Shown: piece by piece, positions 57,975 through 63,907 of the stretch
Position numbering within the stretch: the first letter of the stretch is position 1
Layout of the letters: every line of letters starts with the position of its first letter
IMG/VR virus record: IMGVR_UViG_3300037882_002578
Coordinates: 62,001-126,000 of that record
Direction: 5' to 3' (one strand)
DNA: 64,000 bases
Source of the DNA: a virus
Made by a program: the position numbers and the translations under genes
The notes under the pieces: generated by a model
Told to the model about the DNA's origin: nothing
Database searches by the model: none
What the model saw: only the letters and a program-made list of their open reading frames with translations

Positions 57975-58071
57975 TTAATCTGTTATTTCTACTTTATAGT
58001 TAATTAATGCTTGGTAAATATTTGGTTTATTTTTATAATCTAAAGCCAGTTTTTTTAGCTGTTTGTTCTTT
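57975..58071 (-). pseudogene. Detached C-terminal end of the HNH/AP2 endonuclease (+1 frame)
   Basis: In the frame one base later than the HNH gene, the sequence reads QLKKLALDYKNKPNIYQAL and ends NYKVEITD with no start codon. That is the usual ending of HNH/AP2 phage endonucleases. Joining at the A7 run (58050-58056, six A's would restore frame) gives a full-length protein. Frameshift mutation or homopolymer sequencing error. Confidence 0.65.
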
Positions 58072-58707
58072 TACAATTTTGTAAGATTCGAATGCTTCTA
58101 TTTCTGAACAAAATACTCCTAGATATTTAGACTCTCCGTTTACGTTACATACCGCTTTAAATTTATTAATTCTTTTATCAAAATATACACCTATCAAATA
58201 CTCACCTCTGTGGGATTTTCTTTTTGTAAATAAATTATTCACTTCCTGAGGAACAAAACAACAAGTATCAGGACTATAAACTTTGTTATCTTTTATAATA
58301 ATATCTTTATCTAAAGCATATCCTTCTATATAATTATCTTCAAACCATTTGGAAAAATTTTGGTAATTATGCCATTCTTTAGCTACTGAACATCCTATAT
58401 ATGTTGGCTGTTTCTCTTGATATTTTTTACTATAACATCTTTGCAACATATGATTCCAAGTCGTATAAGATTTACTTAATTTACCATTTATTTTTACTTT
58501 ATACCTACCAATACCAATAAATCCAATATTAAAGACTGATGGATGATTATAATTTTTAATAGAGCCCTTTTTTAAACTACTATAAGATACTCTTACGACA
58601 TGACCATCTTCAAATTTAATCTCTATGTTTAGACATGTTTTATAAGCTATAACTTCAACCAAATAACCTTCATTAGTTATAAATTTTTCACCTATTATAT
58701 TTTTCAT
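58033..58707 (-). CDS. HNH homing endonuclease with AP2-like C-terminus, 3' frameshifted
   Basis: 224 aa. The N-terminal small barrel (IGEKFITNEGYLVEVIAY, then GIGRYKVKI) is followed by TTWNHMLQRCYSKKY, AKEWHNYQNFSKWFEDNY, YALDKDIIIK and YSPDTCCFVPQEVNNLF, the phage HNH motif. An AP2-like DNA-binding repeat follows (GVYFDKRINKFKAVCNVNG). The reading frame ends at GFRL soon after an A7 tract, while the expected C-terminal helix lies in another frame downstream. Same class as the domain embedded in thymidylate synthase. Possibly now inactive. Confidence 0.8.
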   Translation of the reverse strand: MKNIIGEKFITNEGYLVEVIAYKTCLNIEIKFEDGHVVRVSYSSLKKGSIKNYNHPSVFNIGFIGIGRYKVKINGKLSKSYTTWNHMLQRCYSKKYQEKQPTYIGCSVAKEWHNYQNFSKWFEDNYIEGYALDKDIIIKDNKVYSPDTCCFVPQEVNNLFTKRKSHRGEYLIGVYFDKRINKFKAVCNVNGESKYLGVFCSEIEAFESYKIVKEQTAKKTGFRL

Positions 58708-59794: not shown

Positions 59795-60738
59795 AAACTA
59801 TCTATAAATTCGTTAATTTCTTGCTCTTTTTGTTTTTTTACTGCAACTTTATCCTTTTTTTGTTGATAATGAGCAATTAAAATCTTTTTTAAATTAGCTT
59901 TGTCTTCTTCTGTTGGGTCTTTTATTAATCCCTTTACTTGATTTTTAATTTCTTCGGTAAAAGCTCCGCTTGTATAAATACGTTGTAATAGTGGTAGTTC
60001 TTCTATAAAAGGTTCAAATTTTGTGTTTTCATTTTTATCAATAAATGTCTCAAATGGTTCTTCAAAACGCATTTTTTTGAATATGTTAATATTTGCAAAT
60101 ACATCTTGTTTTACGTATTTATTTATTTTTTCCAATCCATTTTTCCAATACTCCTCTGAAATTTGACTCCCATCTATCTCTGTTTTAGGTGATGGTAAAT
60201 CAAAATGATAACACATTTCGTCTACCGATGTATTCGCATAATGTGTGCCACGAAATATATCCATTAAGTCTAAACATCTATCTAAGTTCCAGGGCTTTTT
60301 TCCTGACGTAATAAATCGGTCTACAAGATTTGAAGTTACATCAAAATACTTCATTCCATTTACAGCTACTACGGGTAAATCATAACCTAAAATGTTTGCG
60401 CCAGCTACATAATCAAAAGAGTTTGCTATAGTACAAAATTGTCTTAATATGCTTTCTTCATCTCCTTCTAAAGCTTTAATGTGGACTACATTGTCTTTAA
60501 TAAAGCCAACACCCACAGATACAACTTTCATATAGCACATTTTTAATGCTCCATTTCTATTATATTGTTCTAAAACTTCTTCTTGAGGTAATAACTCATC
60601 TGTTTCTCTATTTCTAGTTTTTTTTTGAAACAGTTCAAACTCCTTAGAGTTTACATCTAATTCTTTGTTTTTACGTACAACTTTTAAATCAAAGAACAGT
60701 ACACTTTCTTGATTAACTTTTTTGATTGTTTGATTCAT
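59788..60738 (-). CDS. DnaQ/PolB-exo2-like 3'-5' exonuclease, motif I altered
   Basis: 316 aa. Motif I reads VLFFDLKVV where F-D-x-E is expected, so the second acidic residue is a Lys. Motif II ANILGYDLPVV and motif III KYVKQDVFANINI are intact, and MKVVSVGVGFI fits between. The layout resembles the predicted PolB-like exonuclease family (DNA_pol_B_exo2). The missing Glu may impair metal binding. C-terminus is a basic, coiled-coil-like helix. Its start overlaps the end of the upstream homing endonuclease by 26 nt; an internal Met is far downstream, so this start is kept. Confidence 0.75.
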   Translation of the reverse strand: MNQTIKKVNQESVLFFDLKVVRKNKELDVNSKEFELFQKKTRNRETDELLPQEEVLEQYNRNGALKMCYMKVVSVGVGFIKDNVVHIKALEGDEESILRQFCTIANSFDYVAGANILGYDLPVVAVNGMKYFDVTSNLVDRFITSGKKPWNLDRCLDLMDIFRGTHYANTSVDEMCYHFDLPSPKTEIDGSQISEEYWKNGLEKINKYVKQDVFANINIFKKMRFEEPFETFIDKNENTKFEPFIEELPLLQRIYTSGAFTEEIKNQVKGLIKDPTEEDKANLKKILIAHYQQKKDKVAVKKQKEQEINEFIDSLC

Positions 60739-61288
60739 TCTTATCTAATTTATAATTATAATAATATTCTAAAGGATTTTCTTTAAAACATTCATTTTTG
60801 CCTCTAAACTCCTCGTTTGGATGATACCTTAAACTTTTAAAGTCTTCTAGTATTTTACTTTCTGAAAAAGTGTGTGCATATAGATTTCCTTTTTCAAAAT
60901 AAATAACTTTAATACTGTAATTTTTGGGGAACTCTTTTAGTCTTTTGTTAATGTCCTCATTTGTAACTACACCTACTTTAAAGAAAATTTCATTATTGTT
61001 TTTTATTTCTAAAAAATATAACCACGCATCTATTTGTAACCATTGTTCTTTATGATTCTCTGCGTTACCTTTATTAAAAACTCCGAGTGGGTTACCTTGA
61101 TTACATTTTCTACATTTAATACCTCTTTCGTGGTGGTCTGCTCTAACTCTATAATATCCGTGTATTGGGCATCCCACTTCTATGTAGTCTCTTTTCTTAT
61201 TAAATACAACCCTGTCATACAAATAAAAATTATTATGTACATCAGAACACTTACTTAAATAATCTTTTTGTGAAGTTTTCCCTTTCAT
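60713..61288 (-). CDS. Zinc-ribbon plus T5orf172/MUG113-type putative homing endonuclease
   Basis: 191 aa. One zinc-ribbon segment (VGCPIHGYYRVRADHHERG, then CRKC) and a C-terminal GIY-YIG-related domain (LYFLEIKNNNEIFFKVGVV, ESKILEDFKS, GKNECF). It is a shorter relative of the 320-aa protein at 40304. Its 3' end overlaps the exonuclease start by 26 nt, so it may have arrived by insertion next to, or into, the 5' end of that gene. Confidence 0.75.
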   Translation of the reverse strand: MKGKTSQKDYLSKCSDVHNNFYLYDRVVFNKKRDYIEVGCPIHGYYRVRADHHERGIKCRKCNQGNPLGVFNKGNAENHKEQWLQIDAWLYFLEIKNNNEIFFKVGVVTNEDINKRLKEFPKNYSIKVIYFEKGNLYAHTFSESKILEDFKSLRYHPNEEFRGKNECFKENPLEYYYNYKLDKNESNNQKS

Positions 61289-61340
61289 TTTTATACCTCA
61301 ACTATTAGACTTGATTTAATGTTCTGTAATACTTTCATAT

Positions 61341-61763
61341 TTAATAAGCTAATGTAGTTCTACTTTGTTCTAATTCAGGTAAAAATTCTTTTACTATCTC
61401 TCTACATTTTTGTTCATCTTGAAGCAAGAAGGATGAGGCGACATTACTAACCGAGTGGGTGTAATAAGAATCGTAGAAACTAAACGGTGAGTTATTAAAC
61501 CAATAGTAGTATTTTTTTTGGCTGTCATCATTCATATCAGGCTTCCAACCATTATTCTTATAAGCCACAATCATAATCTCTTTTTGAAGATACTTCAAAT
61601 GTAATGGCAAATTTTTATAATCTTTTTCAAATTGTTCTTCCGTTGTATTATGGTATTTATATACTTTTTGCATAGCATTTTGACTTTCAATTTGCTTTAA
61701 CTGTTCCTTTGTAAGATTAATTTCTACCTCTTTTCCGTTGATATTAATTTTGATTGTTTTCAT
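61341..61763 (-). CDS. DGR variable protein 1 (C-type-lectin-like C-terminus)
   Basis: 140 aa. N-terminal strand-helix MKTIKININGKEVEINLTKEQ is shared with variable protein 2. The C-terminal half has GWKPDMNDDSQKKYYYWF followed by the variable segment FSFYDSYYTHSVSNVASS, as in small Bacteroidetes DGR targets that end in a C-type lectin fold. The variable codons sit at 61428-61485. The gene overlaps the end of the reverse transcriptase gene by 20 nt, so the two are co-expressed. Role: diversified binding protein; ligand unknown. No signal peptide or membrane helix seen. Confidence 0.85.
   Translation of the reverse strand: MKTIKININGKEVEINLTKEQLKQIESQNAMQKVYKYHNTTEEQFEKDYKNLPLHLKYLQKEIMIVAYKNNGWKPDMNDDSQKKYYYWFNNSPFSFYDSYYTHSVSNVASSFLLQDEQKCREIVKEFLPELEQSRTTLAY
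61428..61485 (-). repeat. DGR variable repeat VR1
   Basis: 58 nt aligned to the template repeat at 62795-62852. In the 47-nt core (61434-61480) there are 8 differences, every one at a template adenine (T on the plus strand). Three further differences, at the two ends, are at other bases, where homology fades. Confidence 0.9.
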
Positions 61764-62682
61764 GTATTTTTCTTAAATTTATTGAGTTACAGTGGACTAA
61801 CCAAGAGTTCCATCTTTCTTTGTTTTTACTTCTTTTGTAATTTTGTTTTATGCTTTTCCTTAATAGTGTGTAGTCTTTTCTATGAACAAAGCCAACAAAA
61901 TCAACCCCTCTATCTTCTACAGGAAATATTTGATAAGTGTGCTTTATTTCTAATTTTAATGTTTTTAAATAAGAACTTATTTTACTTAATATTAAATGCA
62001 GTTCTTTTTTATCATTAGATAAAATTACTATATCATCCATGTAACGCCACACATACCTTACTTTTAATTCTTGCTTTATGTAGTGGTCTAAATAACATAA
62101 ATAAAAATTAGCCAAATACTGACTTATAAGTGAACCAAGTGGAAGTCCTATAGGATTAGAATCTATAATATTATCTAATAAATTTAATAAATCTTTATCC
62201 TTGAACTTTTTTCTCAGCATCAACTTTAAAATATCATGGTCTACATTTTTATAAAACTTTTTAATATCTAATTTTAAACAGTTTTTATTATAATTTTCAT
62301 CTTGTAATGCTTTTCTTAAGCTATAAGATGCTTTACAAATACCTCTACCTTTTATACAACTGTAGGTATTTTTGTTAAATACCTTAACTAGTATTTCACC
62401 TATTTGTAATATAATTGCGTGGTGTAATATTCTGTCAGGGTAGTAAGGTAATCTTGAAATAGTTCTATGCTTAGGCTTTAATATTTCAAAGCTACTATAT
62501 TCAGAAGTCTTAAACTGCCTATGATTTAACAACTCATGTAAATTATTTATATTTTCAACTTCGTTTTCTATATGTTTATTAATACCAAATTGACCAATTT
62601 TTCCTTTTCTAGCAATTTTATCAGCTTTTTGCAAATTTTCAACACTTATTATTTTAGTATATAAATTTGATTTACATTTCAT
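61744..62682 (-). CDS. DGR reverse transcriptase
   Basis: 312 aa, a single RT domain. KPKHRTISRLPYYPDRILHH (N-terminal RT motifs), LKLDIKKFYKNVDHD (motif A Asp139), GLPLGSLISQYLANFY (DGR-type motif with SQ), VWRYMDDIVIL (catalytic YMDD, residues 214-217) and VDFVGFVHRKDY. There is no maturase or endonuclease domain, which argues against a group II intron RT. It copies the template-repeat RNA with adenine-specific errors that are then transferred to the variable repeats. It lies between the template and variable gene 1. No Avd-type accessory gene is visible. Confidence 0.93.
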   Translation of the reverse strand: MKCKSNLYTKIISVENLQKADKIARKGKIGQFGINKHIENEVENINNLHELLNHRQFKTSEYSSFEILKPKHRTISRLPYYPDRILHHAIILQIGEILVKVFNKNTYSCIKGRGICKASYSLRKALQDENYNKNCLKLDIKKFYKNVDHDILKLMLRKKFKDKDLLNLLDNIIDSNPIGLPLGSLISQYLANFYLCYLDHYIKQELKVRYVWRYMDDIVILSNDKKELHLILSKISSYLKTLKLEIKHTYQIFPVEDRGVDFVGFVHRKDYTLLRKSIKQNYKRSKNKERWNSWLVHCNSINLRKIHENNQN

Positions 62683-62704
62683 GTATTATTCTCTTGCTTC
62701 AAGA

Positions 62705-62735
62705 AACTCCTTTTCACTTTCATTACTAAGGAGTT
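62705..62735 (-). other. Stem-loop between template repeat and RT gene
   Basis: AACTCCTT (62705-62712) pairs perfectly with AAGGAGTT (62728-62735), and a smaller CACC/GGTG hairpin lies at 62755-62767. These may shape the template RNA or its priming region. Confidence 0.55.
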
Positions 62736-62794
62736 GAGGCTTATTTTTATTTTTCACCTTGTTGGTGAGGTCTCAGTTTAAATTTTATAAACAG

Positions 62795-62852
62795 GAGTGA
62801 TGAGGTGACATTACTATTCGAGTTGTTGTAATTAGAATTGTTGAAACGAAAG
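62795..62852 (-). repeat. DGR template repeat (TR)
   Basis: Non-coding 58-nt copy lying in the 203-nt gap between variable gene 2 and the RT gene. Translated in the variable-gene frame it reads FRFNNSNYNNSNSNVTSS: eight of its 18 codons are AAC/AAT, plus one ACC, the adenine-rich design that diversifies without creating stops. Confidence 0.93.
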
Positions 62853-62885
62853 CAGGGGACACTTCTTAAACTTAAACCTTTGTTA

Positions 62886-63335
62886 TTAATACATTAATCG
62901 TTTACAAATAGCTAAATAATTTTTATTATTACCTGCTGAGTTTGCTAATTTTTCTGTTTTGAAGGAGAGTGACGAGGCGACATCACTATCCGAGCCGTAG
63001 CAATTAGAACAGTCGAAACGAAAGTTATTATTTAAATAATACCAATTTCTCCATTTTTTTTCAGAATTGTTATTCCAATCAAAGATGTGTTTTTCATTTA
63101 AGGCTCTATTTATACAAACTGCTTCCTGATTAGCTAAGATTCTATCAGAAATATCTACTTTTTGCAACTGTCTTAAATTACTCACTTCTAAGTCATCCTC
63201 TCCAAGATAATCTATACAATCTTGTAAAGTACACGTTGAAGCATCTAATTGTTTTTGTTTGTTTATTTGAGCTAGTTGCTCTTTGGTTAAAGTGATTTCT
63301 ACATCTTTACCATTAATTTGAATTGTTGTTTTCAT
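62886..63335 (-). CDS. DGR variable protein 2 (C-type-lectin-like C-terminus)
   Basis: 149 aa. N-terminus MKTTIQINGKDVEITLTKEQ matches variable protein 1. The middle is helical (residues 30-90). The C-terminal part holds WNNNSEKKWRNWYYLNNNF, then the variable stretch FRFDCSNCYGSDSDVASS, then SFKTEKLANSAG, the usual ending of DGR lectin-fold targets in Bacteroidetes. First gene of the cassette, 24 nt below a consensus promoter. The ligand is unknown, and no export signal is visible, so whether it acts inside the cell, on the virion or after lysis is open. Confidence 0.87.
   Translation of the reverse strand: MKTTIQINGKDVEITLTKEQLAQINKQKQLDASTCTLQDCIDYLGEDDLEVSNLRQLQKVDISDRILANQEAVCINRALNEKHIFDWNNNSEKKWRNWYYLNNNFRFDCSNCYGSDSDVASSLSFKTEKLANSAGNNKNYLAICKRLMY
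62967..63024 (-). repeat. DGR variable repeat VR2
   Basis: 58 nt aligned without gaps to the template repeat. There are 11 differences and all 11 are at template adenines (coding strand). Homology stops at both ends of the 58 nt. Confidence 0.93.
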
Positions 63336-63358
63336 ACTATGTTTTTATTTTTTTTTTG

Positions 63359-63390
63359 CAAAGATAATACTTTATTTTTAATTGCACAAG
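63359..63390 (-). promoter_or_regulatory. Bacteroidetes-type promoter of the DGR cassette
   Basis: Minus strand: CTTG (63390-63387), 20 nt, TATCTTTG (63366-63359). It can transcribe variable gene 2, template, RT and variable gene 1; no terminator was seen before the exonuclease and nuclease genes. Confidence 0.85.
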
Positions 63391-63397
63391 AAAAATT

Positions 63398-63550
63398 TTA
63401 ATCTTGTTTATACCAAAACCTAATTGTATTCTCTAAGGTTTCAATGTTAATAATTTGTCTCCCTTCTAATTTTTCGTCTACTTCTGCTCTAACATAATGC
63501 ATTAAATAGTCTCTTCTATCTATATCTAAGTAATTTATTGTTTGTGTCAT
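63398..63550 (-). CDS. Small hypothetical protein (50 aa)
   Basis: Starts MTQTINYLDIDRRDYLMHYV. Charged helical protein ending RFWYKQD. Lies just upstream of the DGR promoter and is not similar to known DGR accessory proteins. Function unknown. Confidence 0.55.
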   Translation of the reverse strand: MTQTINYLDIDRRDYLMHYVRAEVDEKLEGRQIINIETLENTIRFWYKQD

Positions 63551-63566
63551 AATTTTTCATATTTTA

Positions 63567-63578
63567 TTTCGGCGCAAA
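63567..63578. promoter_or_regulatory. TTTCGSCGAAA-type motif
   Basis: TTTCGGCGCAAA in the 44-nt gap before the 50-aa gene. Confidence 0.45.
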
Positions 63579-63594
63579 AAGTTAAAAATAGATT

Positions 63595-63717
63595 TTAATA
63601 ATCTTGAATATACCTATACTGCAACAAACACATTAACTGATATTCTTTACTTCCTTTCTCTACTTGATTCATAATGGAGTTATAATAGTCCATAGCTTTA
63701 GTAAACTTAGTTTCCAT
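63595..63717 (-). CDS. Small hypothetical protein (40 aa)
   Basis: Reads METKFTKAMDYYNSIMNQ... and ends LLQYRYIQDY. Overlaps the upstream gene by 11 nt. Function unknown. Confidence 0.5.
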   Translation of the reverse strand: METKFTKAMDYYNSIMNQVEKGSKEYQLMCLLQYRYIQDY

Positions 63718-63907
63718 AATATTTATCTAAGAAATCATAAAATTTTATCATTTCTTCTTTAGTAAAACTCATTTCTTTTTCACCGAAAGAGATAATAAAA
63801 GTAGATTCTTCATACACATCTATAGACAAAGAGTCTACTTCATTTTCTTTAACTCTAATATAATTTATACTATCGTTAACATTACCATTATTTAACCATT
63901 TTTTCAT
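63707..63907 (-). CDS. Hypothetical protein (66 aa)
   Basis: Starts MKKWLNNGNVNDSINYIRV; ends in an acidic helix (SFTKEEMIKFYDFLDKYYG). 16 nt downstream of a -7 box. Function unknown. Confidence 0.6.
   Translation of the reverse strand: MKKWLNNGNVNDSINYIRVKENEVDSLSIDVYEESTFIISFGEKEMSFTKEEMIKFYDFLDKYYGN

Follow-up and report, generated by a model that had tools for sequence, protein, structure and literature searches.

In the diversity-generating retroelement (DGR) of Bordetella phage BPP-1 there is one target, the tail-fibre protein Mtd, an avd gene is present and the layout differs from that of the element described here; a template repeat (TR), a variable repeat (VR), an error-prone reverse transcriptase (RT) and mutagenesis at adenines, the last judged here by sequence, are common to both. 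Work on phage DGRs has been centred on tail fibres and host range. According to the survey of Roux et al. (PMC8144416), in the parts of it covered here, most targets of viral DGRs are connected with tails, and the DGRs of crAss-like phages covered here act on tail or receptor-binding proteins encoded in the structural region (PMC7290462, PMC11054128, PMC12386605). The element reported here belongs, as a DGR, to an already known kind; its putatively non-structural target family, its rearranged gene order and its presence-absence island make it a distinct variant.

The window, i.e. the whole stretch of DNA that was analysed, comprises 64,000 nucleotides (bases 62001-126000 of a virus record of 135,902 bases), and all positions below are counted within it. 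We read the element as a complete DGR in which one TR feeds two targets (probability about 0.94), as had been claimed in the preliminary description of this DNA, and the repeats, the type of the RT and a base control over the target family speak for this reading. A check of the sequence and of the ORFs found all parts of the DGR where they had been placed:

62886..63335, minus strand: VP2, variable target gene 2, 149 aa (ORF; phrog_11581 E=1.5e-5; family HMM E=1.7e-16)
62967..63024, minus strand: VR2, variable repeat in VP2 (repeat alignment with the TR)
62795..62852, minus strand: TR, non-coding template repeat between VP2 and the RT gene (repeat alignment)
62683..62794, minus strand: TR-RT spacer, 112 nt, presumably within the DGR RNA
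61744..62682, minus strand: DGR reverse transcriptase, 312 aa, with YMDD and GLPLGSLISQ (ORF, Pfam, PHROGs, PDB match, tree)
61341..61763, minus strand: VP1, variable target gene 1, 140 aa (ORF; phrog_11581 E=9e-4; family HMM E=3.8e-14)
61428..61485, minus strand: VR1, variable repeat in VP1 (repeat alignment with the TR)
63359..63366, minus strand: TATCTTTG, a match to TAnnTTTG 24 nt upstream of VP2 (weak evidence)
60713..61288, minus strand: gene of a T5orf172-domain endonuclease at the island edge (Pfam T5orf172 7.9e-5, above the cut-off; phrog_681 endonuclease 1.2e-19)
60743..63904, no strand: 3.16-kb island with the endonuclease, VP1, RT, TR, VP2 and two small ORFs (comparison with the closest relative)

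In the order of transcription the parts follow one another as VP2, TR, RT and VP1 (minus strand, 61341-63335), in agreement with the order given earlier; they are contiguous, with no room for an avd gene between them, and the start of VP1 overlaps the end of the RT gene by 20 nt. The TR was rightly called non-coding, lying outside all listed ORFs of at least 50 aa, and both VRs are within coding genes, in frame with it. The VRs had been described as gene-end repeats, which holds in so far as they are near the ends of the genes but not at the very ends: 26 codons separate VR2 from the stop of VP2, and 28 separate VR1 from the stop of VP1. The tract GTCrCCTCrTC is common to the repeat ends, and separate IMH and IMH* elements are not definable from it. 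The TR-RT spacer folds no more stably than shuffled sequence (z = -0.77). A single host-type promoter had also been proposed for the cassette. The motif TAnnTTTG, which we take to be that of Bacteroidota promoters, occurs 133 times in the AT-rich window versus 111 expected (sd 10.6), barely over chance, and a scan of the window for sigma-70-type promoters gave 22 versus 20 expected, so the match at 63359-63366 leaves the single promoter unsupported. The T5orf172 endonuclease gene is linked to the cassette and stands outside the DGR proper.

The differences between the TR and the two VRs follow the adenines of the template. VR2 differs from the TR at 11 positions in 57 nt, all of them TR adenines (hypergeometric P=4.1e-7), as had been counted before; VR1 differs at nine in a 50-nt core, again all at TR adenines (P=3.7e-5), which is the same signal as the eight of eight reported earlier for a 47-nt core. 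Over the 58 nt of VR1 nine of the 12 differences are at adenines and the other three are at the repeat edges, which points to a short or older rewrite. Neither the substituted positions nor the substituted letters are the same in VR1 and VR2, and the two genes were thus rewritten independently, which bears out the earlier claim of independent retargeting. The TR has 19 adenines in 57 nt and its translation in the frame of the targets is FRFNNSNYNNSNSNVTSSL; mutating every one of its adenines would give up to 1.1e10 protein variants, with no stop codon possible. From known DGR biology we infer a DGR RNA, mutagenic reverse transcription and homing in this phage: the TR would be transcribed to RNA, the RT would copy this RNA into cDNA with misincorporation opposite the template adenines, and the cDNA would take the place of both VRs, so that one template would diversify VP2 as well as VP1. 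Neither the window nor the other 72 kb of the 135.9-kb record holds a third copy of the repeat, and the search for strain-level variation met with this TR or its VRs in no other IMG/VR contig.

VP1 and VP2 are divergent members of phrog_11581, a family of unknown function. Since VP2 had no tblastn match in phage records, a profile was needed; it was built on the targets of three related loci (L002-L004), VP1 and VP2 being left out, and among the ORFs of the window it matched just VP2 (1.7e-16) and VP1 (3.8e-14). The identity of the two proteins to other family targets is only about 21-34%, and no Pfam family was found for either of them. Family proteins are mostly 120-160 aa long, without a Pfam match; in most loci their genes accompany a DGR RT, and the family loci come mostly from Bacteroidota phages and prophages. 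Of 83 viral-contig loci with phrog_11581 genes, a set that includes near-identical and duplicate loci, 79 carry adenine-specific VRs within the family genes; 58 of these loci have two targets, 13 have a single one and 8 have three. The base control covered 132 loci (the viral ones, this window and 48 from bacterial genomes), and in it each base in turn was treated as the template letter that mutates. With A as the template letter the pattern was found in 109 of the 132 loci and in 218 of 248 ORFs, with C or T in none, and with G in six ORFs, where one VR may have been compared with another VR. The adenine-specific pattern in 218 of the 248 family ORFs, together with the zero counts for the C and T templates, shows that this DGR type is genuine.

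The 48 bacterial loci are nearly all from Bacteroidota. In about 19 of them a family gene is present and an RT was not found within the flanks examined (L156, L158, L162, L163, L167, L170, L172-L174, L177, L179, L180, L183 and L185-L189); Bacteroides fragilis is among the genomes concerned. Possibly these are members of the family that are not controlled by a DGR. In 69 of the 77 RT-bearing family loci an ORF of about 98 aa (phrog_19665-like) follows or overlaps the RT gene, usually with an overlap of 10 nt (e.g. L002:4947-5240). This ORF, a candidate accessory gene of phrog_11581-type DGRs, is absent from the other DGR loci tested (L005-L020) and from the present phage, where VP1 occupies its place behind the RT; its lack here was counted against the DGR reading. 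VP1 is the sole family gene located downstream of its RT, among 217 in RT-bearing loci.

For VP2 and a typical family member AlphaFold2 gave models that are confident outside the VR (mean pLDDT 85.5 and 87.7, respectively, the VR under 50) and that show an N-terminal hairpin and helices. Foldseek against the PDB gave nothing at E<=0.001, with the C-type lectin not among the matches and the VR being the low-confidence part of the model, and the C-type lectin fold was not recognised by the Pfam or PDB profile searches either. The significant hits of Foldseek in BFVD are to uncharacterised proteins of viruses, one of them a crAss-like virus. As the models are least reliable in the VR, a C-type lectin fold could still be present. 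Furthermore, the VRs of family relatives end in SRLC, a motif ascribed to the CLec3 class (PMC7290462), and this agreement with the CLec3 description makes a reduced or diverged lectin domain possible.

The record carries an exact 99-base direct repeat at its ends (bases 1-99 and 135804-135902), which indicates a probably complete genome. In the capsid protein the phage shares 45% identity with Cellulophaga phi4:1 and phi17:2 and 38% with crAssE-Sib; the terminase and the portal match PHROGs of the head and packaging class. By these matches the phage is related to Cellulophaga phi4:1 and the epsilon crAss-like phages; the crAss-like placement is drawn from the capsid and packaging proteins, and the classification of the phi4:1 record goes no further than Lightbulbvirus, Caudoviricetes. 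Its relatives suggest that the phage infects Bacteroidota. The closest IMG/VR relative (L112/L124), with a capsid protein 97% identical, is colinear on both flanks of the island (window 59992-60742 and 63905-64204, 77-78% match), and in place of the 3,162 bases of the island (60743..63904) it has 275 bases. As this relative is without the whole cassette, the cassette was probably gained, and gain by this phage, probably a recent one, is the simplest reading. RT or VP matches were found neither in a relative with an 83% identical capsid protein nor in three more, some of these records being fragments.

The cassette perhaps moves as a 3.2-kb island together with the neighbouring homing-type endonuclease. 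Endonucleases of the T5orf172 kind often move neighbouring DNA in phages, and the one adjacent to the cassette may conceivably have moved it as its passenger. There are three T5orf172-type endonuclease genes in this phage (window 60713-61288 and 40304-41266; L021 15868-16395), and with three related genes homing-type gene movement seems common in it. Additionally, window 57992-58706, which contains a 224-aa ORF (58033-58707), differs from the closest relative, which has 455 unmatched bases between matching flanks at this place, and is possibly another mobile gene.

The reading would change if the RT were that of a group II intron, a retron or a defence system and the repeats were ordinary duplications. 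The RT, an intact ORF with YMDD and GLPLGSLISQ as had been stated, matches RVT_1 (Pfam, E=5e-20) and phrog_1423 (PHROGs, E=9e-94). It also scores on NCBIfam models of group II introns (111 bits against a cut-off of 300), Drt3a and retrons, but all of these scores are far under their cut-offs. Its best PDB match, with 3.8e-32 over nine entries, is 8ub7, presumably the Bordetella phage DGR RT, and group II or retron-type entries stay at about 1e-13. Motif 4 reads GxxxSQ instead of the QGxxxSP of the group II RTs compared here, and GxxxSQ is the motif of most DGR RTs (PMC12386605). In the tree, which had been proposed as a check, group II introns are set apart from the RT with a support of 100/99 and the RT stands among DGR RTs; the nearest RTs by tree path, up to 55% identical, are those of phrog_11581-type loci. 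A single clade of the RT with the family RTs is neither established nor rejected (p-AU 0.49), and one tree joins the RT to other DGRs. Cellulophaga phages are absent among the RT matches listed. Neutral divergence would not be expected to leave adenine-only differences in both repeats either, and such an origin is next to negligible: the RT is, by its sequence, of the DGR type. It would be another matter if the element had once diversified both genes and were now a dead, silent relic in this phage. Some weight is given to this by the non-adenine differences at the edges of VR1, by the absence of the accessory-like ORF of related cassettes and by the fact that many crAss-like DGRs are incomplete (PMC7290462). 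We regard it as improbable, as the RT ORF is intact and has its catalytic YMDD, all differences of VR2 from the present TR are at adenines, and the TR still matches VP1 and VP2 in frame.

The nature of the targets is a separate question, on which the genomic surroundings of the family cassettes give moderate guidance. Neighbours were scanned against PHROGs, taking two ORFs upstream and the downstream ORFs past the common small ORF. The commonest named families were RecT, metal-dependent hydrolase, replication initiation, exonuclease and primase, further frequent ones being ParB, NinB, DNA methyltransferase, helicase and HNH endonuclease. Tail and head families are missing from the top 25 neighbour families on both sides. 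Such neighbours tie the family to regions of replication and recombination genes, and the present phage fits in with this, its cassette adjoining a PolB-type exonuclease in a gene block that also holds a DnaB-type helicase. VP1 and VP2 might nevertheless be minor virion or host-attachment proteins of a real DGR that merely happens to lie in the replication module. Tail or receptor-binding proteins indeed make up nearly all of the phage DGR targets described so far, those of crAss-like phages included (PMC7290462, PMC11054128, PMC12386605 and the covered parts of PMC8144416), and a family relative in phage Versailles bears the depositor label 'tail protein', though it is situated among recombination and replication genes. 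Against this stand the surroundings of the family DGRs, which in dozens of phages consist of genes for replication and recombination, the small size of their proteins with no Pfam match, and the location of the cassette on the minus strand, opposite to the structural genes on the plus strand; a virion role is the less likely reading. We give about an even chance to VP1 and VP2 being small non-virion proteins made together with the replication genes, a location assigned because of gene position, with the VR as a surface binding a host component, possibly a defence protein.

With somewhat less confidence, a whole class of phage DGRs can be envisaged that would serve not host attachment but the rapid diversification of pairs of small intracellular early proteins, e.g. 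proteins that bind or inhibit host defence or replication factors which themselves vary. If the targets are intracellular, the same hypermutation machine would be used on a moving target within the cell. The target family is large and occurs in cultivable Bacteroidota (e.g. Chryseobacterium, Elizabethkingia, Pedobacter), and its proteins are small enough for binding tests; the present phage adds a probably recent gain of a cassette with rearranged gene order in a crAss-related genome.

Compared with the DGRs of crAss-like phages, the RT is about 46-50% identical to the LMMB-type RTs of crAssphages, which have GxxxSQ too, and LMMB has no avd (PMC7290462), a gene that was not identified in the present phage either; the RT of crAssE-Sib (PMC11054128), a relative by its capsid protein, has GxxxSP and is very divergent. 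The RT genes of cr53, cr7, cr6 and cr56 (L026, L027, L139, L140) are full-length only when TAG is read as an amino acid, and such readthrough fits the amber recoding in crAss-like phages. The DGR of the zeta group crAss-like phages has a tail or receptor-binding target in the structural region (PMC12386605), whereas the cassette described here is among replication genes. In Quimbyvirus the target ORF 80/84 is, as here, outside the structural module, near methyltransferase and nuclease genes, but unlike here there is an extra target in the tail module, both targets are called C-type lectins and the RT is frameshifted (PMC8008677). A published description of phrog_11581 targets as a class of their own was not found in the literature covered here, and the supplementary tables of PMC8144416 may include one. 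The closest systems are the phrog_11581-type DGRs of Bacteroidota phages and prophages (loci L002-L004, L029-L108 and L142-L184), which share with the present element the small targets of one family, a single TR, adenine-only VRs and surroundings of replication and recombination genes, and the nearest of their RTs are 51-55% identical to ours. They have the order VP-VP-TR-RT, usually with the ORF of about 98 aa next, whereas here the order is VP2-TR-RT-VP1 without that ORF and, unlike in those systems, the cassette is carried by a crAss-related phage.
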